In this document: in pieces, positions 53,106-61,861 of the stretch
Numbering within the stretch: position 1 is the stretch's first letter
Layout: each line of letters opens with the position of its first letter
Assembly (NCBI RefSeq): GCF_018986915.1
Contig: NZ_CP076723.1
Coordinates: 2,389,501 to 2,453,500 of the forward strand
DNA: 64,000 bases
Origin: Geomonas oryzisoli
GTDB taxonomy: Bacteria > Desulfobacterota > Desulfuromonadia > Geobacterales > Geobacteraceae
Direction: 5' to 3'
The notes under the pieces: generated by a model
The model's input: only the letters and a program-made list of their open reading frames with translations
Databases searched by the model: none
Told to the model about the DNA's origin: nothing
Made by a program: the position numbers and the translations under genes

Positions 53106-54758
53106 CTAGATACCGGTGCCGTCGTCACCGTACCCCTTTACCGGGGTACTGCCGCGCTTGAAGAGCAGGATGCTGACGCCGTCGCCGTTTCGGTCAAATT
53201 CGAAAGCAAGCTCATGCTCGTAGGCCAGCTGCGCCACCGGTTCCAGCTGGGACAGGTCGCGCAACCGGATCAGGATGCGGTTCCCCTTGTTCAGGTAGTC
53301 GTGGATGCTCTGCGCCAGATCGAGGATGAATAGCCCCTTCTCCTCGGTGAGATCGACCACGTTCAGGTTGGTCGCAGCCACAGCGTCGAGGGTGATGTGC
53401 CGGGGAGCCCAGGGGTTGCTCTCGCCTGCCGAGAGATGCGCCCGCTGCGACTCGTCGGGAGCGTTCAACACCATGCCTGCCGCCACGGTCGCGTTGGTGA
53501 AACGATCAATGAGGATGAAACTGCCGGTGTCGCGGTTGGCGCCGTACGGGTCGAAGGAAACGGGACGGTCCAGCTCGATGCGTGCCAGGCCGATCTCGTT
53601 CAGACCAAGGGTGGCGACCTGCTTCTGCTCCAGGGTGTTCACGTCCACCGCGTACTGCACGGCGGTCACCCGGCCCGGTGTCACGCCGGTGGCGGTCTTC
53701 ACCAGGTAGAGCTGCCCGGGCTGCAGCGGCTCGTCGTGCATCCAGACCAGGTGCGCCTCGGGATGCCTGGTGTAGAGCGGCGGCGCCTCGGGACGGGTCA
53801 GCATGTCGCCGCGGCTGATGTCGATCTCGTCCTCCAGGGTGAGCGTAACCGCCTGCCCCGCCACCGCCTCGTCGAGGTCGCCGTTGAAGGTGACGATACG
53901 GGCAACCTTGCTGGTCTGCCCGGAGGAAGCCACCCTGACCTCGTCGCCGGGACGGATGGTGCCGGAAGCGACGGTGCCGCAGAAGCCGCGGAAGTCGAGG
54001 TTGGGACGGTTCACCCACTGCACCGGGAGGCGGAACGGCTGCTCGTCGCGGTCATCCTCGACCTGGACCGTCTCCAGGAAGTGCATCAGGGTCGGACCCT
54101 GGTACCACGAGGTCTCACCGCTCTTCTCGATGATGTTGTCGCCGTTCAATGCGGAGATGGGGAGCGCCGTGATGCTGGTGAAGCCCAAAGGTGCTGCGAA
54201 CTCGCGGTAGTCCGCCTCGATTGCGCGGAACTTCTCCTCGTCGTAGCCGATCAGGTCCATCTTGTTGATGGCCAGGACGATGTGCTTGATCCCCACCAGG
54301 GAGACCAGAAAACTGTGGCGGCGGGTCTGGGTCAGAAGCCCCTTGCGCGCATCGACCAGGATGACGGCGACCTTGGCGGTCGAGGCGCCGGTCACCATGT
54401 TGCGGGTGTACTGCTCGTGCCCCGGGGTGTCGGCGACGATGAACTTGCGGCGGTCGGTGGAGAAAAAGCGGTAGGCCACGTCGATGGTGATCCCCTGCTC
54501 CCGCTCCGCCTGCAAACCGTCCAGAAGCAGCGCGTAGTCGATGGCGCCGCCTTGCGTCCCCACCTTCTTGCTGTCCGCTTCGAGCGCCGCCAGTTGGTCC
54601 TCGAAGACCATCTTGGAATCCCACAACAGCCGCCCGATGAGGGTGCTCTTGCCGTCGTCCACGCTGCCGCAGGTGATGAAACGGAGCAGCGACTTCTCTT
54701 CCTGGCTCTTCAGGTAGGCAAGGATATCTTTCTCGATCAGTTCTGATTGATGTGCCAT
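53106..54758 (-). CDS. cysN: Sulfate adenylyltransferase, GTPase subunit
   Basis: Works with CysD to form adenosine 5'-phosphosulfate from sulfate and ATP, driven by GTP. The 550 residues contain [15 protein letters not shown] near 33, [15 protein letters not shown], and [12 protein letters not shown], then EF-Tu-like domains II and III, ending in a further C-terminal domain. There is no fused APS kinase. The ATG overlaps the cysD stop (TAATG). Last gene of cysH-cysD-cysN. Confidence 0.95.
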
Positions 54759-55663
54759 TAGAAGTACCCTTCCTGTTTCTTTTTCTCCATCGAACCGGCC
54801 TGGTCGTGGTCGATCAGGCGCCCCTGGCGCTCGGAGGTGCGGGTGAGCAGCATTTCCTGGATGATCTCGGGGAGCGTGTCGGCCTCGGACTCGACCGCGC
54901 CGGTCAGCGGATAGCAGCCCAGGGTGCGGAAGCGGACCGACTTGTACTCCACCTGCTCGCCCGGCTTCAGCTCCAGCCGGTCGTCGTCGACCATGATCAG
55001 CATGCCGTCGCGCTCGACCACGGGGCGCACCGCGGAGAAGTACAGGGGCACGATGGGGATCTCTTCCAGGTGGATGTACTGCCAGATGTCCAACTCGGTC
55101 CAGTTGGAGAGCGGGAAAACGCGGATGCTCTCGCCCGGCTTGATGCGGGTGTTGTACAGGCTCCAGAGCTCGGGGCGCTGGTTCTTCGGGTCCCAGCGGT
55201 GGTTCGCGCTACGGAAGGAGAAGATGCGCTCCTTGGCGCGGGACTTCTCCTCGTCGCGGCGCGCGCCGCCGAAGGCCGCGTCGAACTTGTACTTGTCCAG
55301 CGCCTGCTTGAGCCCCTCGGTCTTCATGACGTCGGTGTAGAGCGCGGAGCCATGGGTAAAGGGAGAGACCCCCTTCTTCACCCCTTCCTCGTTCACGTGC
55401 ACCAAAAGCTCCATGCCGGACTCCTTGGCCATGCGGCCGCGGAACTCGATCATGTCGCGAAACTTCCAGGTGGTGTCCACATGCAGAAGCGGAAACGGCG
55501 GCGGGGCCGGGTAGAAGGCCTTGCGGGCCAGGTGCAGCATGACGGCGGAGTCCTTGCCGATGGAATAGAGCATCACCGGGTTGTCAAACTCGGCCACCAC
55601 CTCGCGGATGATGTGGATGCTTTCGGCTTCGAGCTGCTGCAGATGGGTCAAATTTGTCTTCAT
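54758..55663 (-). CDS. cysD: Sulfate adenylyltransferase, catalytic subunit
   Basis: The ATP pyrophosphatase subunit of ATP sulfurylase. The 301 residues begin [21 protein letters not shown] and contain the PP-loop [18 protein letters not shown] near 35, [15 protein letters not shown], and [15 protein letters not shown]. The end is [19 protein letters not shown]. The length is typical. 69 bases separate it from cysH upstream. Confidence 0.96.
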
Positions 55664-55732
55664 GGCATTATCCCGTATCGATCTTCGTGTGCCGGAGCTA
55701 TCTCAGCGCCGGGCGGGTGTTCCCTACCCCTG

Positions 55733-56425
55733 TTACCTGCGGTGCAGACCGCACTCCTTGTGCTCAGGGTTCTCCCACCACCACCGTCCGGCGCGGGCGT
55801 CCTCGCCCGGCTGGACCGCCCTGGTACAAGGGGCGCAGCCGATGGAGCGGTACCCCTGCTTCAAGAGGCGGTTCTGGGGCAGACGGCGCTCCTTGACGAA
55901 CTCCAGGAGTTGCGCCTCGCTCCAGTCGAGGAGCGGGTTGAGCTTCAAGATGCCGCCGTTCAACTGGTCCAGCTCGATCGCCTTCAAGTCGGTCCGGGTG
56001 ACGTTGTGCTCGCGGCGCATGCCCGTGACCCAGCCGGCCAGACCTTGCAGCGCACGCCCCAGCGGTTCGACCTTGCGGATGTGGCAGCACTCGTGGCGAT
56101 TGTCCAGCGATTCCCGGAACGAGAACAGTCCCTTCTCACGCTCCAGCTGCTCCACCGCCTCGTGTTTCGGGAAATACCAGTCGATTTTGAGGCGGTAGCG
56201 TTCGGTGAGGGCGTCGGCGACTTCGTAGGTTTCCTCGTTCAGCCTGCCGGTATCGAGCGCGAACACGCCGATGTCAAGGCCGGCCTCCTGGGCCAGTTCG
56301 ATGATGGCGACATCCTCAAGCGAGAAGGAGCAGGCCAGTTGCACCGGACCTTTGGCTGCTTCAAGACCGAGGCGAAGGATATCCTGGGCGGTTGCGTTGG
56401 CGGGGACTTCAGGCACAGCGTTCAT
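55733..56425 (-). CDS. cysH: Adenylylsulfate/phosphoadenylylsulfate reductase
   Basis: Reduces activated sulfate to sulfite with thioredoxin. The 230 residues (ATG 56425, AGGAAG five bases upstream) show the PP-loop-like SFSLEDVAI, ALDTGRLNEETYEV, the cysteine pair in ECCHIRKVEPL and CAPCTRAV, and the catalytic ECGLH near the C-terminus. The paired CC...CXXC cysteines mark the [4Fe-4S] type, which normally uses APS rather than PAPS. The absence of cysC nearby agrees with this. First gene of the cys operon, with a plausible promoter upstream. Confidence 0.94.
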   Translation of the reverse strand: MNAVPEVPANATAQDILRLGLEAAKGPVQLACSFSLEDVAIIELAQEAGLDIGVFALDTGRLNEETYEVADALTERYRLKIDWYFPKHEAVEQLEREKGLFSFRESLDNRHECCHIRKVEPLGRALQGLAGWVTGMRREHNVTRTDLKAIELDQLNGGILKLNPLLDWSEAQLLEFVKERRLPQNRLLKQGYRSIGCAPCTRAVQPGEDARAGRWWWENPEHKECGLHRR

Positions 56426-56502
56426 TGGGGCTTCCTTTCCAGAGACGATTCGGATCCACGACAGTACTCGGTGTAAATACCACCGATCCAAGCTTGTGTG
56501 AC

Positions 56503-56531
56503 GTTGTAGCTTATTCAACCAAAGCAGTCAA
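56503..56531 (-). promoter_or_regulatory. Likely promoter of cysH-cysD-cysN
   Basis: On the minus strand TTGACT (56531-56526), a 17-base spacer and TACAAC (56508-56503), about 78 bases before the start codon. A GC-poor stretch lies further upstream, to about 56580. Confidence 0.55.
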
Positions 56532-58131: not shown

Positions 58132-58500
58132 GAGAGCCTACCTGGTTTCTGTTCAGCGGGCCTCACTCGCAACGCGGGGCGTCGATGGGGGTGAGACCGG
58201 CTGCCCGGCGCGACGGGAAAAAATCGAGGATACCCCTAATGGCCCCAGAAAACAAGAAGCATAGGGCATGGTGTTCATGATGCGGGTCCTACCAAGCGTA
58301 GGCCGCCACCGTGCGAGGCCGGAACTATACTGTCTGGGCCTGGCCCGTTATCTTTGAGTGTTGATTTTTTTACTGTGACAGTGTCGCATATACAAAAGAA
58401 ACTGCTATAACTCAAGAATGTCATACCGATACGTATCTTTACCACCTTTACCTACTGCCACCGACGCCCATCCTACTCCACTCTCAAAGGAGGAAACGCG
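58132..58500. other. Intergenic region between the MATE gene and the selenoprotein gene
   Basis: Holds the divergent leader sequences. An AT-rich stretch at 58355-58420 probably contains the promoter for the rhodanese gene (TATAAC at 58406-58411), but no good -35 lies at the right distance. AAAGGAGG sits just before the ATG at 58501. No repeat or RNA gene was recognised. Confidence 0.4.
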
Positions 58501-59898
58501 ATGTCTGTTCGAAGAATCAGCTGTTCACTGTCAGCTCTGTCAGTCGTAGCCCTGCTCACCGTGCAGGGAGCACTAGCGGGCGATACGGTACCGGCAAAGG
58601 CAAAGGCGAAGGCGAAAGACGTGAAATCCTGCTCGGTCTGTCACAAACCGGCCGAGGGACAACTGCGGGCCTTTTTCGACAGTGTCGCTATGAAATCACA
58701 GACGATACAGCTCAGGTTCGACGATGGCGCCGAGGTTCTCGTTTTCGACAAGGACACCCTCAACATCGTCAACGCGGCCGTTCCGGGGAACCTGGAGAAG
58801 TCGTTGCGGGCCATAAAGAAAGGGCACGAGGTGCGGGTGGCGTACCAGGAAGCGAGTAACGGGATCAAGAAGATCAGCGAAATCTCCATCAAGCCCGCTA
58901 TGAAGGTCCCGGCCGAAAAGCAGCTCAAGGTCGAGCAGCTGGAAAGGCTCATCTCGGGTAAGAAGAAGTACACCCTGGTGGACGCGCGGCCGGCTCCCAA
59001 GTACCAGGAGGGTTCCATCCCGACGGCAATCAACATCCCCTTCCCCGCCTTCCAAAAGAACCTGGACAAGCTCCCCAAGGACAAGGGTGAACTGCTGGTC
59101 TACTTCTGTGCCGGCGTCACCTGAGCTCTCAGCCCCTCTTCCGCCCGTGAGGCGGAGAAACTCGGCTACACCAATGTAAAGATATTCCACGACGGCGTCC
59201 CCGAATGGAACAACCGCAACTTCACCGTGTTGACGGCCAAGTCCCTGAAGGAGGCATGGCTCGACAAGGGACTCTCCTTCGTGCTTCTGGACGTGCGCCC
59301 CGAGGCGCAGGCGGGCCAGGGGTTCATCCCAGGCGCGGCCAACGTGCCGGAACAGGAACTGGACCAGGCCGTGGCGACATTCCCGAAACAGGAACTGAAG
59401 CCTCCGGTGGTTATTTATGACGCCAAGGGCGACGGCAGCGCCGAACGGGTGGCCCGCAAACTCATCAAGGCCGGGTACCCGGGACCGCGCGTGTTGACCG
59501 GCGGCTTTGCCGCCTGGCAGGGAGCAGGCTTCCAGACCGCCACAGGGAAACCGCCGGCCGTGGTCAGCTACGTTCCCAAGCCAAAACCCGGCACCATAGC
59601 AGTCAGCGAGTTCCAGTCCTTCGCCCGAGGCATCCCGGCCGGCGTACAACTGCTGGACGTGCGCGGAGCCGACGAAGCGGCCAAAACAGGGATGATCAAG
59701 GGTGCGGTCAACATCCCTGCCGACGAGATCGCAGACCGGCTGGGAGAGGTATCGAAGGAGAAGAAGGTCGTCTTGCACTGCTCCACCGGCACACGCGCCG
59801 AGATGGGATACACGATCCTCAAGGAGAAGGGGTACCAGGTCCAGTACCTCGACGCTACCATCACGCCAAACCAGGACGGAGGCTTCACCATCAAGTAA
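58501..59898 (+). CDS. Candidate selenoprotein: periplasmic heme-motif triple-rhodanese sulfurtransferase with in-frame UGA
   Basis: If UGA 59122-59124 is read as selenocysteine, this is one 465-residue protein. The signal peptide is about 1-26. One c-type heme motif, CSVCH, is at 44-48. A domain of unknown type spans about 50-135. Three rhodanese domains follow. The first (about 140-240) has the loop YFCAGVT then Sec208 then ALSPSSAREAEKLG, with Cys203 at the normal catalytic position. The second (about 245-345) has Asp307 where the catalytic cysteine should be, so is inactive. The third (about 365-465) keeps HCSTGTR with Cys427. The frame continues without interruption for 774 bases past the UGA, and no ribosome site restarts translation there. 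Periplasmic sulfur or selenium transfer is likely. Confidence 0.82.
59125..59160 (+). promoter_or_regulatory. Candidate bacterial SECIS element
   Basis: A hairpin with stem TCCGCC (59140-59145) and GGCGGA (59151-59156), extendable by one G-U pair, and loop CGTGA. The loop begins 21 bases after the UGA and has G as its second base. Both fit the general bacterial SECIS pattern of a small loop with an early G, some 16-37 bases past the UGA. The stem sits within coding sequence. Confidence 0.55.
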
Positions 59899-59989: not shown

Positions 59990-61861
59990 ATGAAAGCCGT
60001 AGCGATCGTTGTACTCTCTCTGGTTGTCTCGGGTACGGTTTGGGGCTTCGAGGCGGATTCTCAGTGCGTCGTGTGTCACAGCGACAGGAACCTGTTGAAG
60101 TCGCTGGGTGCTGAGGCGATGTTCCTCGACCCGGCGCAGGTGGACCGTGAAGTGAACATGCCCGGGGTCACCTGCATCGACTGCCACCTGGGCGACGAAA
60201 GCGTAAAGGACAAGGAGGCCGCGCACAAGGACATGCTGCGCCCCTTCGTGGTCGGCGTGGGACCAAAAATCAAGGGGGAGGCCCTGTCCCGGCAGGCGGC
60301 AGGGGCGGTAAAGCCACTGGTTCCACGTTCCTCCGACATGGAAGCCCTCACGCCGGAAGGCGACCCGAACAAGCTTGCCACCCTGGGAGTGAAGGCGGTG
60401 ACCGGCATCCACTGGCAGGACCGCGATCCGAAGACCTTCGCTTTTTCCCCCGACATCGCCCGCAAGACCTGCGGCAAGTGCCATGCCCAGGAGGTAAAGG
60501 ATTACGCGGGCTCGGAGATGGGGCTGCTGAAGCACCAGAGGTCGTTCCGCACGTGGTCGGAGCGGCTCCCCGGGCCCCAGAACTGCGGCATGTGGTTCGG
60601 GCAGAACTATGACAACCTGAAGGGACAGACCGCCGTCCCCTACTCCCTGGCCCAGAACGATGCCTCGAACCGCTCCTGCAACATGTGCCATCCGGGCTGC
60701 AACGATTGTCACTACAAACCGCACGCAGGAAGCGGCAGCCACAGCTTCGGCCTTCCGGACACGACCAGTTGCTACGGCGGCGGTCGCGGCACCATCTGCC
60801 ACGCTGGACCGATGGATCGCAGACGTGGTGCCGGGTACTTCCGCGGCGACTATTCCTTCCCTCCCAACCTGCCCCAGGAGGCGCACTTCAAGGCGGGGAT
60901 CACCTGCATCGACTGCCACAAGCCTCAACAGCACCAGTTCGGCCACCTCGGTTCACCCCGGGCTCGTGCCGCCTGCGCCAACTGCCACGCCGAGATCGTG
61001 AAGGCGGTGCAGAGCTCGGCGCACGCCACGGTAGACTGCGCGGCCTGCCACGTCACCGTGGTCGGCGCCTACCAGTACACCTTCTGGGGGCCGGGCGTCA
61101 CCTTCGGCGTCGAGACCCCGTACGGCAAGCACAAGGAATACTACGGCACCCGCGATCTCCCAACCATCGTGAAGAACGCCGACGGGCGCTGGATCGGCGT
61201 GAAACCCTACCCCATGGCGGTGATGAACCAGACCGCCGAACTCGCCCCGACCGGGCTTTTGTTCCGCGAGATACCCAAGCGGCGCATACCGGGTAACACG
61301 TCCATCGGAGAGCCGGCGTTTTTCGAGGCGGTGCGCGGCGCGCGCGACGTCAACGACGCCTACATCGGCGTCGGTACGCGCAGCGACCTTCCCTCCGGCA
61401 ACAAGGCGATTCTCTGGGTGCAGATGGACAAGATGAGCCATGCCCTCGGCAAGCCGCGCAGTTGCGCGACCTGCCACGACTCCCCGACCCAGGTGGGCAG
61501 ATCGGAGTGGAGCTATTTCGAGAAGTCCGATGTGAAAAAGCCCTTCAAGGGGAGTTACAAGGTCCTTGCTGACAAGGACGGGTTGAGGTTTATCGAGCAG
61601 GTCTGGGACAAGCCGGATCCCGCCGGCAACCGCAAAGCGGAGGACTTCGCCCCCTTTACCCTGCTGCCGGCCGGTGCCTGGGACGTGAAGGGGATCGACT
61701 TCTCGCTTCCCTACGACAAGAAGAAGACGGACGCGGCACGCAGGGAGCTCGATCTGTTCCTGGCGCAGCTTGCGAACCGCAAGGACGCGGAAGGGGCCCG
61801 GCTGAGGGCGGTGGCCTATCACAACCTCGAACTCGCCAAGTCAATGCTGCAGCAACGCTGA
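59990..61861 (+). CDS. Periplasmic multiheme c-type cytochrome (nine CXXCH plus a CX8CH motif)
   Basis: A 623-residue exported protein (signal peptide about 1-19, ATG 59990 right after GGGAGGAG). Canonical heme sites are CVVCH 26, CIDCH 62, CGKCH 161, CNMCH 230, CNDCH 237, CIDCH 306, CANCH 329, CAACH 350 and CATCH 492. An extra CYGGGRGTICH at 261-271 has eight residues between the cysteines. Extended CX(n)CH heme sites are known in MccA-type sulfite reductases (CX15CH or similar), but this spacing is not one I recognise. A long heme-poor region (about 355-490) and a C-terminal helix end the protein. It lies 91 bases after the triple-rhodanese gene on the same strand, so a shared sulfur-compound role is plausible. 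Confidence 0.85.
   Translation: MKAVAIVVLSLVVSGTVWGFEADSQCVVCHSDRNLLKSLGAEAMFLDPAQVDREVNMPGVTCIDCHLGDESVKDKEAAHKDMLRPFVVGVGPKIKGEALSRQAAGAVKPLVPRSSDMEALTPEGDPNKLATLGVKAVTGIHWQDRDPKTFAFSPDIARKTCGKCHAQEVKDYAGSEMGLLKHQRSFRTWSERLPGPQNCGMWFGQNYDNLKGQTAVPYSLAQNDASNRSCNMCHPGCNDCHYKPHAGSGSHSFGLPDTTSCYGGGRGTICHAGPMDRRRGAGYFRGDYSFPPNLPQEAHFKAGITCIDCHKPQQHQFGHLGSPRARAACANCHAEIVKAVQSSAHATVDCAACHVTVVGAYQYTFWGPGVTFGVETPYGKHKEYYGTRDLPTIVKNADGRWIGVKPYPMAVMNQTAELAPTGLLFREIPKRRIPGNTSIGEPAFFEAVRGARDVNDAYIGVGTRSDLPSGNKAILWVQMDKMSHALGKPRSCATCHDSPTQVGRSEWSYFEKSDVKKPFKGSYKVLADKDGLRFIEQVWDKPDPAGNRKAEDFAPFTLLPAGAWDVKGIDFSLPYDKKKTDAARRELDLFLAQLANRKDAEGARLRAVAYHNLELAKSMLQQR

Follow-up and report, generated by a model that had tools for sequence, protein, structure and literature searches.

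A triple-rhodanese gene of Geomonas oryzisoli with an in-frame TGA codon predicted to encode selenocysteine

The window analysed here is a stretch of 64,000 nucleotides, positions 2389501-2453500 of the 4.85 Mb single-contig genome of Geomonas oryzisoli. It carries an open reading frame that starts with ATG at 58501 and ends with TAA at 59896-59898, and whose single in-frame TGA, at residue 208 in the context FCAGVT-TGA-ALSP, is followed by a further 774 nt to the TAA end. The gene, its start, the TGA and the next gene that concerns us are as follows:

58486-58493, plus strand: Shine-Dalgarno-like AAAGGAGG, 7 nt 5' of the start codon (direct sequence reading)
58501-59898, plus strand: whole gene for a 465-residue triple-rhodanese protein, read through one TGA (sequence, Pfam)
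59122-59124, plus strand: TGA, predicted Sec208 (same-codon TGA in 27 other loci; Cys in 61 of the best 80 of 148 relatives)
59990-61861, plus strand: gene for a 623-residue multiheme cytochrome with nine CxxCH motifs (Pfam Cytochrome_C7, 33.8 bits; motif count)

The joined protein matches the Pfam rhodanese model in three stretches with 154.2 bits (cut-off 22.2). Taken alone, the part after the TGA reaches 112.7 bits, and the part before it 34.7 bits, its domain breaking off at profile position 70 of 102. When the window was compared with other Geobacteraceae loci that have the TGA, the differences beyond it peaked at codon position 3 in nine of nine comparisons, the counts in one of them being 23/18/77. 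The first in-frame ATG 3' of the TGA is found only at 59692. Of the in-frame GTG/TTG codons, the earliest two (59227, 59230) are preceded by Shine-Dalgarno matches of at most 2/6; further GTG/TTG codons reach 4-5/6 but are positioned deep within domains. The first-pass annotation of this DNA had noted that the frame runs on past the TGA as coherent rhodanese sequence, that the TGA falls inside the first rhodanese active loop and that no ribosome site serves a second gene, and each of these observations stands. Since no NCBIfam model is matched above its cut-off, a standard annotation is expected to split the gene.

Among 48 genomes of the family, 22 yielded 27 listed matches at E<=1e-30, ten of which have exactly one TGA, always in the same codon, more than chance would give; one short paralogue has a terminal TAA, and the other 16 are without an in-frame stop. 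When 141 genomes of the order were searched at E<=1e-70, 75 of them yielded 87 matches; 18 of these have one TGA, and none of the 87 has a TAG or TAA in frame. Eight of the 18 TGA loci were new, and in all eight the TGA occupies the same codon. A scan of genome contigs, in which both search patterns had Cys at the Sec place and Sec forms may be under-sampled, found 148 relatives, the best 80 of which were retained; in the residue-208 column, 61 of these have Cys, 16 have TGA and three have neither. The 16 Sec loci among these best 80 are six from Geobacteraceae and ten from MAGs, the latter titled as Nitrospirae (2), Desulfomonile (1), Candidatus Desulfobia (1), Desulfobulbaceae (3), Desulfurivibrionaceae (1), Proteobacteria (1) and Pseudomonadota (1). 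In total, 28 Sec loci (the window and 27 others) share the TGA in the same codon, in a C-x4-U arrangement. The closest named relatives of the gene belong to Geomonas species.

Some loci deserve separate mention. Two genomes (G096 and G106, with L168, L169 and other matches) harbor a Sec copy plus at least one copy without an in-frame stop. A three-domain relative of the same genus (L024, G026:C15:400752-402086) has neither Cys203 nor a Cys or Sec at 208 (FYGADSFSF), and the loss of both residues has probably left its domain 1 inactive. In two single-domain rhodaneses (L130 and L131) a TGA lies close to the C-terminus; these were set aside as probable true stops.

The genome contains selA, selB and selD, each matched above its cut-off, and a tRNA-Sec of 74.9 bits with the anticodon TCA. 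As the selD match (L045, G000:C1:3776436-3777353) itself carries one in-frame TGA, SelD is probably a selenoprotein in this genome. A tRNA-Sec above cut-off is found in all ten family genomes with a TGA locus and also in 41 of 48 overall, and its presence is therefore non-discriminating. The selA gene was found in nine of the ten MAG genomes with Sec loci (in one of these split over two contigs) and also in six of the seven Cys-form genomes tried.

Shortly after the TGA lies a candidate selenocysteine insertion signal:

59139-59157, plus strand: SECIS-like hairpin, stem 59139-59145 with 59151-59157, loop CGTGA at 59146-59150 (covariation, Cys control)

We aligned this region in 20 Sec loci (the window, nine Geobacteraceae and ten MAGs), gap-free over 48 nt from the TGA. 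The 7-bp helix, columns 18-24 with 30-36, is paired in 92.5% of cells, and five of its seven pairs show changes on both sides; versions of the helix slid along the alignment are paired in 39-54%. Of 500 shuffles, none equalled the helix in pairing or in covariation, and one did so in the number of pairs with changes on both sides; the test overstates significance because the rows are related. Six or seven of the seven pairs form in 18 of the 20 Sec loci (five in the other two) versus 7 of 76 Cys rows. This control comprises the 61 Cys loci from the best 80 of 148 contig relatives and 15 rows from the family search, four of which repeat contig loci and six of which are two-domain paralogues; 71 control rows are distinct. 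Seven of the eight new order-wide Sec loci were scored, with six to seven pairs and the loop GGTCT in each. All 20 Sec loci have G as the second base of the loop, and bacterial SECIS elements carry a G early in the apical loop. Folded alone, the window hairpin has an energy no better than shuffles (z -0.82), and a lenient scan for stems of at least 6 finds one in all 20 Sec loci, but also in 21 of the 76 Cys rows. Mean fold energies differ little (-15.2 for Sec stretches vs -14.0 kcal/mol for Cys), and codon conservation over residues 212-220 is 0.805 vs 0.622 overall, which ranks only 14th of 427 windows. As judged from the aligned sequences, a SECIS-like hairpin is conserved downstream of the TGA and is largely lost in the Cys rows.

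On this evidence the UGA at residue 208 almost certainly encodes Sec. That was also the central proposal of the first-pass annotation, and it is supported by the Sec genes, the same-codon TGA in 28 loci, the Cys homologues and the hairpin. Both genomic checks that it had named came out in favour of Sec: selA, selB, selD and tRNA-Sec are all in the genome, and homologues with Cys or UGA at residue 208 exist (61 and 16, respectively, of the best 80 of 148).

To the first-pass annotation our analysis adds repeated Sec/Cys switching, a CxxCH motif, an OB-like domain and a second domain without its catalytic Cys. We built a tree from 89 rows, of which 20 are Sec, 65 Cys and 4 neither; the program warns of long branches. 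On this tree the Sec label must change at least seven times, well-supported branches force seven changes, and across 200 bootstrap trees the 5-95% interval is 7-7. The tree indicates that in relatives from other bacteria sulfur and selenium have been exchanged at the residue-208 codon several times. Two Nitrospirae loci with Cys (L079 and L083) show 7/7 hairpin pairs after the TGC and cluster with the Sec loci L081 and L082; their loops are AGGAA, with the G kept, and AATAA, without it. The L079 hairpin is possibly a relic SECIS of a recent Sec-to-Cys change, and L083 makes a weaker case because its loop is without the G. Given this repeated exchange and the hairpin-like sequence in two Cys relatives, the family offers a natural test case for the question of what makes bacteria acquire selenium at a particular site or give it up.

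The predicted anatomy of the protein is as follows:

58501-58578, plus strand: probable signal peptide, residues 1-26 (by eye: a hydrophobic stretch, then ALA-GD)
58630-58644, plus strand: CSVCH, a CxxCH heme-c-type motif, residues 44-48 (sequence)
58660-58890, plus strand: OB-like beta barrel, residues about 54-130 (predicted structures, weak Foldseek matches)
58912-59220, plus strand: rhodanese domain 1, residues about 138-240 (Pfam, predicted structure)
59107-59109, plus strand: Cys203 codon, the usual rhodanese catalytic position (Cys in 78 of the best 80 of 148 relatives)
59236-59535, plus strand: rhodanese domain 2, residues about 246-345, Asp307 replacing the catalytic Cys (Pfam)
59596-59850, plus strand: rhodanese domain 3, residues about 366-450, with a CSTGTR loop (Pfam)
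59779-59781, plus strand: Cys427 codon, domain 3 (Cys in 80 of the best 80 of 148 relatives)

With both Cys203 and Cys427 present, domains 1 and 3 have intact loops. At the catalytic place of domain 2 only 3 of the best 80 of 148 relatives have a Cys, and this domain is probably structural. The character of the N-terminus, read by eye, makes the periplasmic location proposed by the first-pass annotation plausible; its further proposal, a sulfur/selenium transfer or redox enzyme, stays an inference. The CxxCH motif is invariant in a chosen set of 24 relatives and occurs at the matching place in 41 of the best 80 of 148 (9 of 16 Sec, 29 of 61 Cys and 3 of 3 others); it is absent from 7 of the 20 Sec loci of the hairpin set and from 39 of those 80 contig relatives, and heme is therefore unnecessary for Sec function. 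We give even odds to heme actually being bound there. An AlphaFold2 model built from 59 sequences has a mean pLDDT of 90.0 and a pTM of 0.79. The best whole-chain Foldseek matches (1yt8, EanB and YnjE) have a TM of about 0.2, and for that reason only domain folds are claimed. For the N-terminal piece alone (predicted structure pLDDT 84) CusF ranks first, with E 1.6e-3 and 9% identity, alongside many further OB folds; no match reaches 0.001.

The nine-CxxCH cytochrome gene adjoins the rhodanese gene in three related loci (L049, L051 and L052) and has no match beside it in three others (L050, L053 and L054), and it is possible that the cytochrome is a partner of the rhodanese protein. We also tried this cytochrome as a homologue of the ExtM-like cytochrome and rejected it, the similarity being weak (best piece 24% identity, E 1.5e-5). 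ExtM- or ExtI-like genes (E<=1e-15) lie near 18 of the best 80 of 148 contig loci, all 18 among the 61 Cys loci, and near none of the 16 Sec loci at the same threshold, in a scan whose flanks were of unequal length and several of whose ExtM matches are only 25-29% identical. In one case (L137) the Cys relative stands just upstream of an extH-I-K-M-like run, named by gene order and size after PMC5877670 and PMC6148476. The ExtK-like pentaheme gene of L137 (10555-11529 and beyond) has an in-frame TGA of its own, at residue 326; the TGA of extK/extL in G. sulfurreducens has already been reported as predicted Sec (PMC5877670, PMC6148476).

About 2 kb upstream of the rhodanese gene, on the minus strand (window 53106-56518), we recognised by eye cysN-, cysD- and cysH-like genes of sulfate assimilation, and the cysN-like gene and an intervening MatE gene were matched in the loci of several relatives. 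The defence-system models of PADLOC gave 0 families at E 0.001.

We propose, with a rough probability of 0.55, that the product is an exported redox rhodanese in which sulfane sulfur on Cys203 is resolved by Sec208. SelB and tRNA-Sec, together with the hairpin at 59139-59157, would read the UGA at 59122-59124 as Sec208, as the comparison supports. The product, probably exported, would combine a CxxCH motif of the heme type and an OB-like barrel with three rhodanese domains. Cys203 would take sulfane sulfur from a persulfide, polysulfide or thiosulfate, and Sec208, five residues past it in the same loop, would attack that sulfur and release sulfide; the resulting Cys203-Sec208 selenenyl-sulfide could then be re-reduced. 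Domain 1 would be a two-electron redox centre, beyond a mere sulfur carrier, and may exchange electrons with the heme and with multiheme cytochromes. Domain 3 retains an ordinary rhodanese loop. The predicted Sec coding, the conservation of Cys203 and Cys427 and the domain order are supported by comparison, at the level of sequence. The C-x4-C/U spacing is retained across relatives, and redox selenoproteins usually have a Cys-Sec pair in an active loop; a redox role of the protein is, in our judgement, probable. The nine-CxxCH neighbour and the Ext-like genes near 18 of the 61 Cys loci speak for an electron-transfer context; against it stand the three loci that lack this neighbour (L050, L053 and L054) and the 16 Sec loci, none of which lies near Ext genes.

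Only tentatively do we go on to a selenenyl-sulfide rhodanese linked to heme c, which would work in the periplasm as an oxidoreductase of sulfane sulfur or of selenite/tellurite; the Cys-x4-Sec pair in its rhodanese loop would exchange two electrons with a covalent heme and then with multiheme cytochromes. Were the Cys-Sec pair and the CxxCH heme to cooperate, sulfur-transfer chemistry would be tied directly to a multiheme electron-transfer network and, in the full form of this heme-linked proposal, wired into the electron-transfer chain of Geobacter-like bacteria.

The first rival keeps Sec208 as real and makes the protein a sulfur- or selenium-transferase, in which Sec would tune or accept S or Se between domains 1 and 3 with no net electron transfer. 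The rhodanese fold with its two intact loops, at Cys203 and Cys427, is what such an enzyme would have, and the Foldseek neighbours 1yt8, EanB and YnjE include sulfurtransferases; however, a C-x4-C/U pair is present in nearly all relatives and would be needless in a plain transferase, and some relatives have a multiheme context, so that we regard this rival as doubtful. More improbable still is a protein for handling metals or tellurite/selenite, with soft metals or metalloids bound by the Cys-Sec pair together with the CxxCH/OB part. The copper chaperone CusF is the best fold match of the N-terminal barrel, but weakly so (E 1.6e-3, 9% identity, one OB fold of many). G. sulfurreducens deleted for extI is impaired in reducing selenite and tellurite, according to PMC5877670 and PMC6148476, but extI is linked to our protein solely through some Cys relatives, and the rhodanese loops look intact. 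That the TGA is a true stop, with a truncated protein and then a second gene, or that it marks a pseudogene or an error of sequencing, has next to no probability and was rejected, for although the standard code gives two ORFs (58501-59124 and 59227-59898), the same-codon TGA recurs in 28 loci across several phyla with no TAG or TAA among 87 matches, the differences beyond it favour codon position 3 with no plausible second start, and the hairpin and the Sec machinery are present.

The exported Cys203/Sec208 rhodanese that we favour can be set beside several known or predicted proteins. Rhodanese selenoproteins are already a predicted kind, and a description of a three-domain CxxCH form was not found in the literature within our scope, which does not extend to the newer families of PMC12013261 and PMC9879109. 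The architecture lies outside the cut-off of every NCBIfam model, all 17 matches of the protein falling below theirs. The table of a 2026 review gives five rhodanese-like selenoprotein forms, with the motifs UxxS, UxxG, CxU, UxxG and UxxxxU (PMC13188914); form 1 is entered as PF00581, UxxS, WP_010941598.1, with Zhang & Gladyshev 2005 as its source. Our protein, with U-A-L-S, shares with form 1 of that table the rhodanese domain, the Sec and the UxxS motif, and could be placed under it by motif alone, as distinct from sequence comparison to WP_010941598.1 (PMC13188914). Form 3, the rhodanese-related (seleno)protein NF041203, likewise has a rhodanese domain with Sec near the catalytic Cys, but its spacing is C-x-U and not C-x4-U, and our protein scores 79.9 bits against its cut-off of 115. 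The rhodanese part of TsoB (NF045694, a rhodanese/DsbD fusion-like protein, form 5) matches domain 1 with 55.1 bits, far under the model's cut-off of 805, and likewise has an x4 spacing between its two reactive residues; TsoB carries two Sec, whereas our protein has Cys and Sec, and no DsbD-like part was found in it.

ExtH, a rhodanese-family lipoprotein of the Geobacter ext cluster, resembles the likely form of our protein in being an exported rhodanese (PMC6148476), and ext-like clusters contain or adjoin the genes of some of its Cys-form relatives, that is, of the relatives of our protein. Identity with ExtH was nevertheless rejected: the ExtH-like gene of L137 is a separate gene that adjoins the Cys relative, and its product, unlike ours, shows no C-x4-C/U loop by eye. 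A single-domain rhodanese on the minus strand in another genome of the family (L129, G036:C93:40453-40743) has CASPTU-SAS, that is, the same C-x4-U spacing and UxxS motif, in a protein of about 114 residues from the first ATG, with no CxxCH and no obvious export signal. The loop CWGPAC of the rhodanese BH2092, also a single-domain protein, whose structure has been solved (PDB 3nhv, 3o3w), aligns with CAGVTC and holds a C-x4-C pair, with Cys where our protein has Sec.
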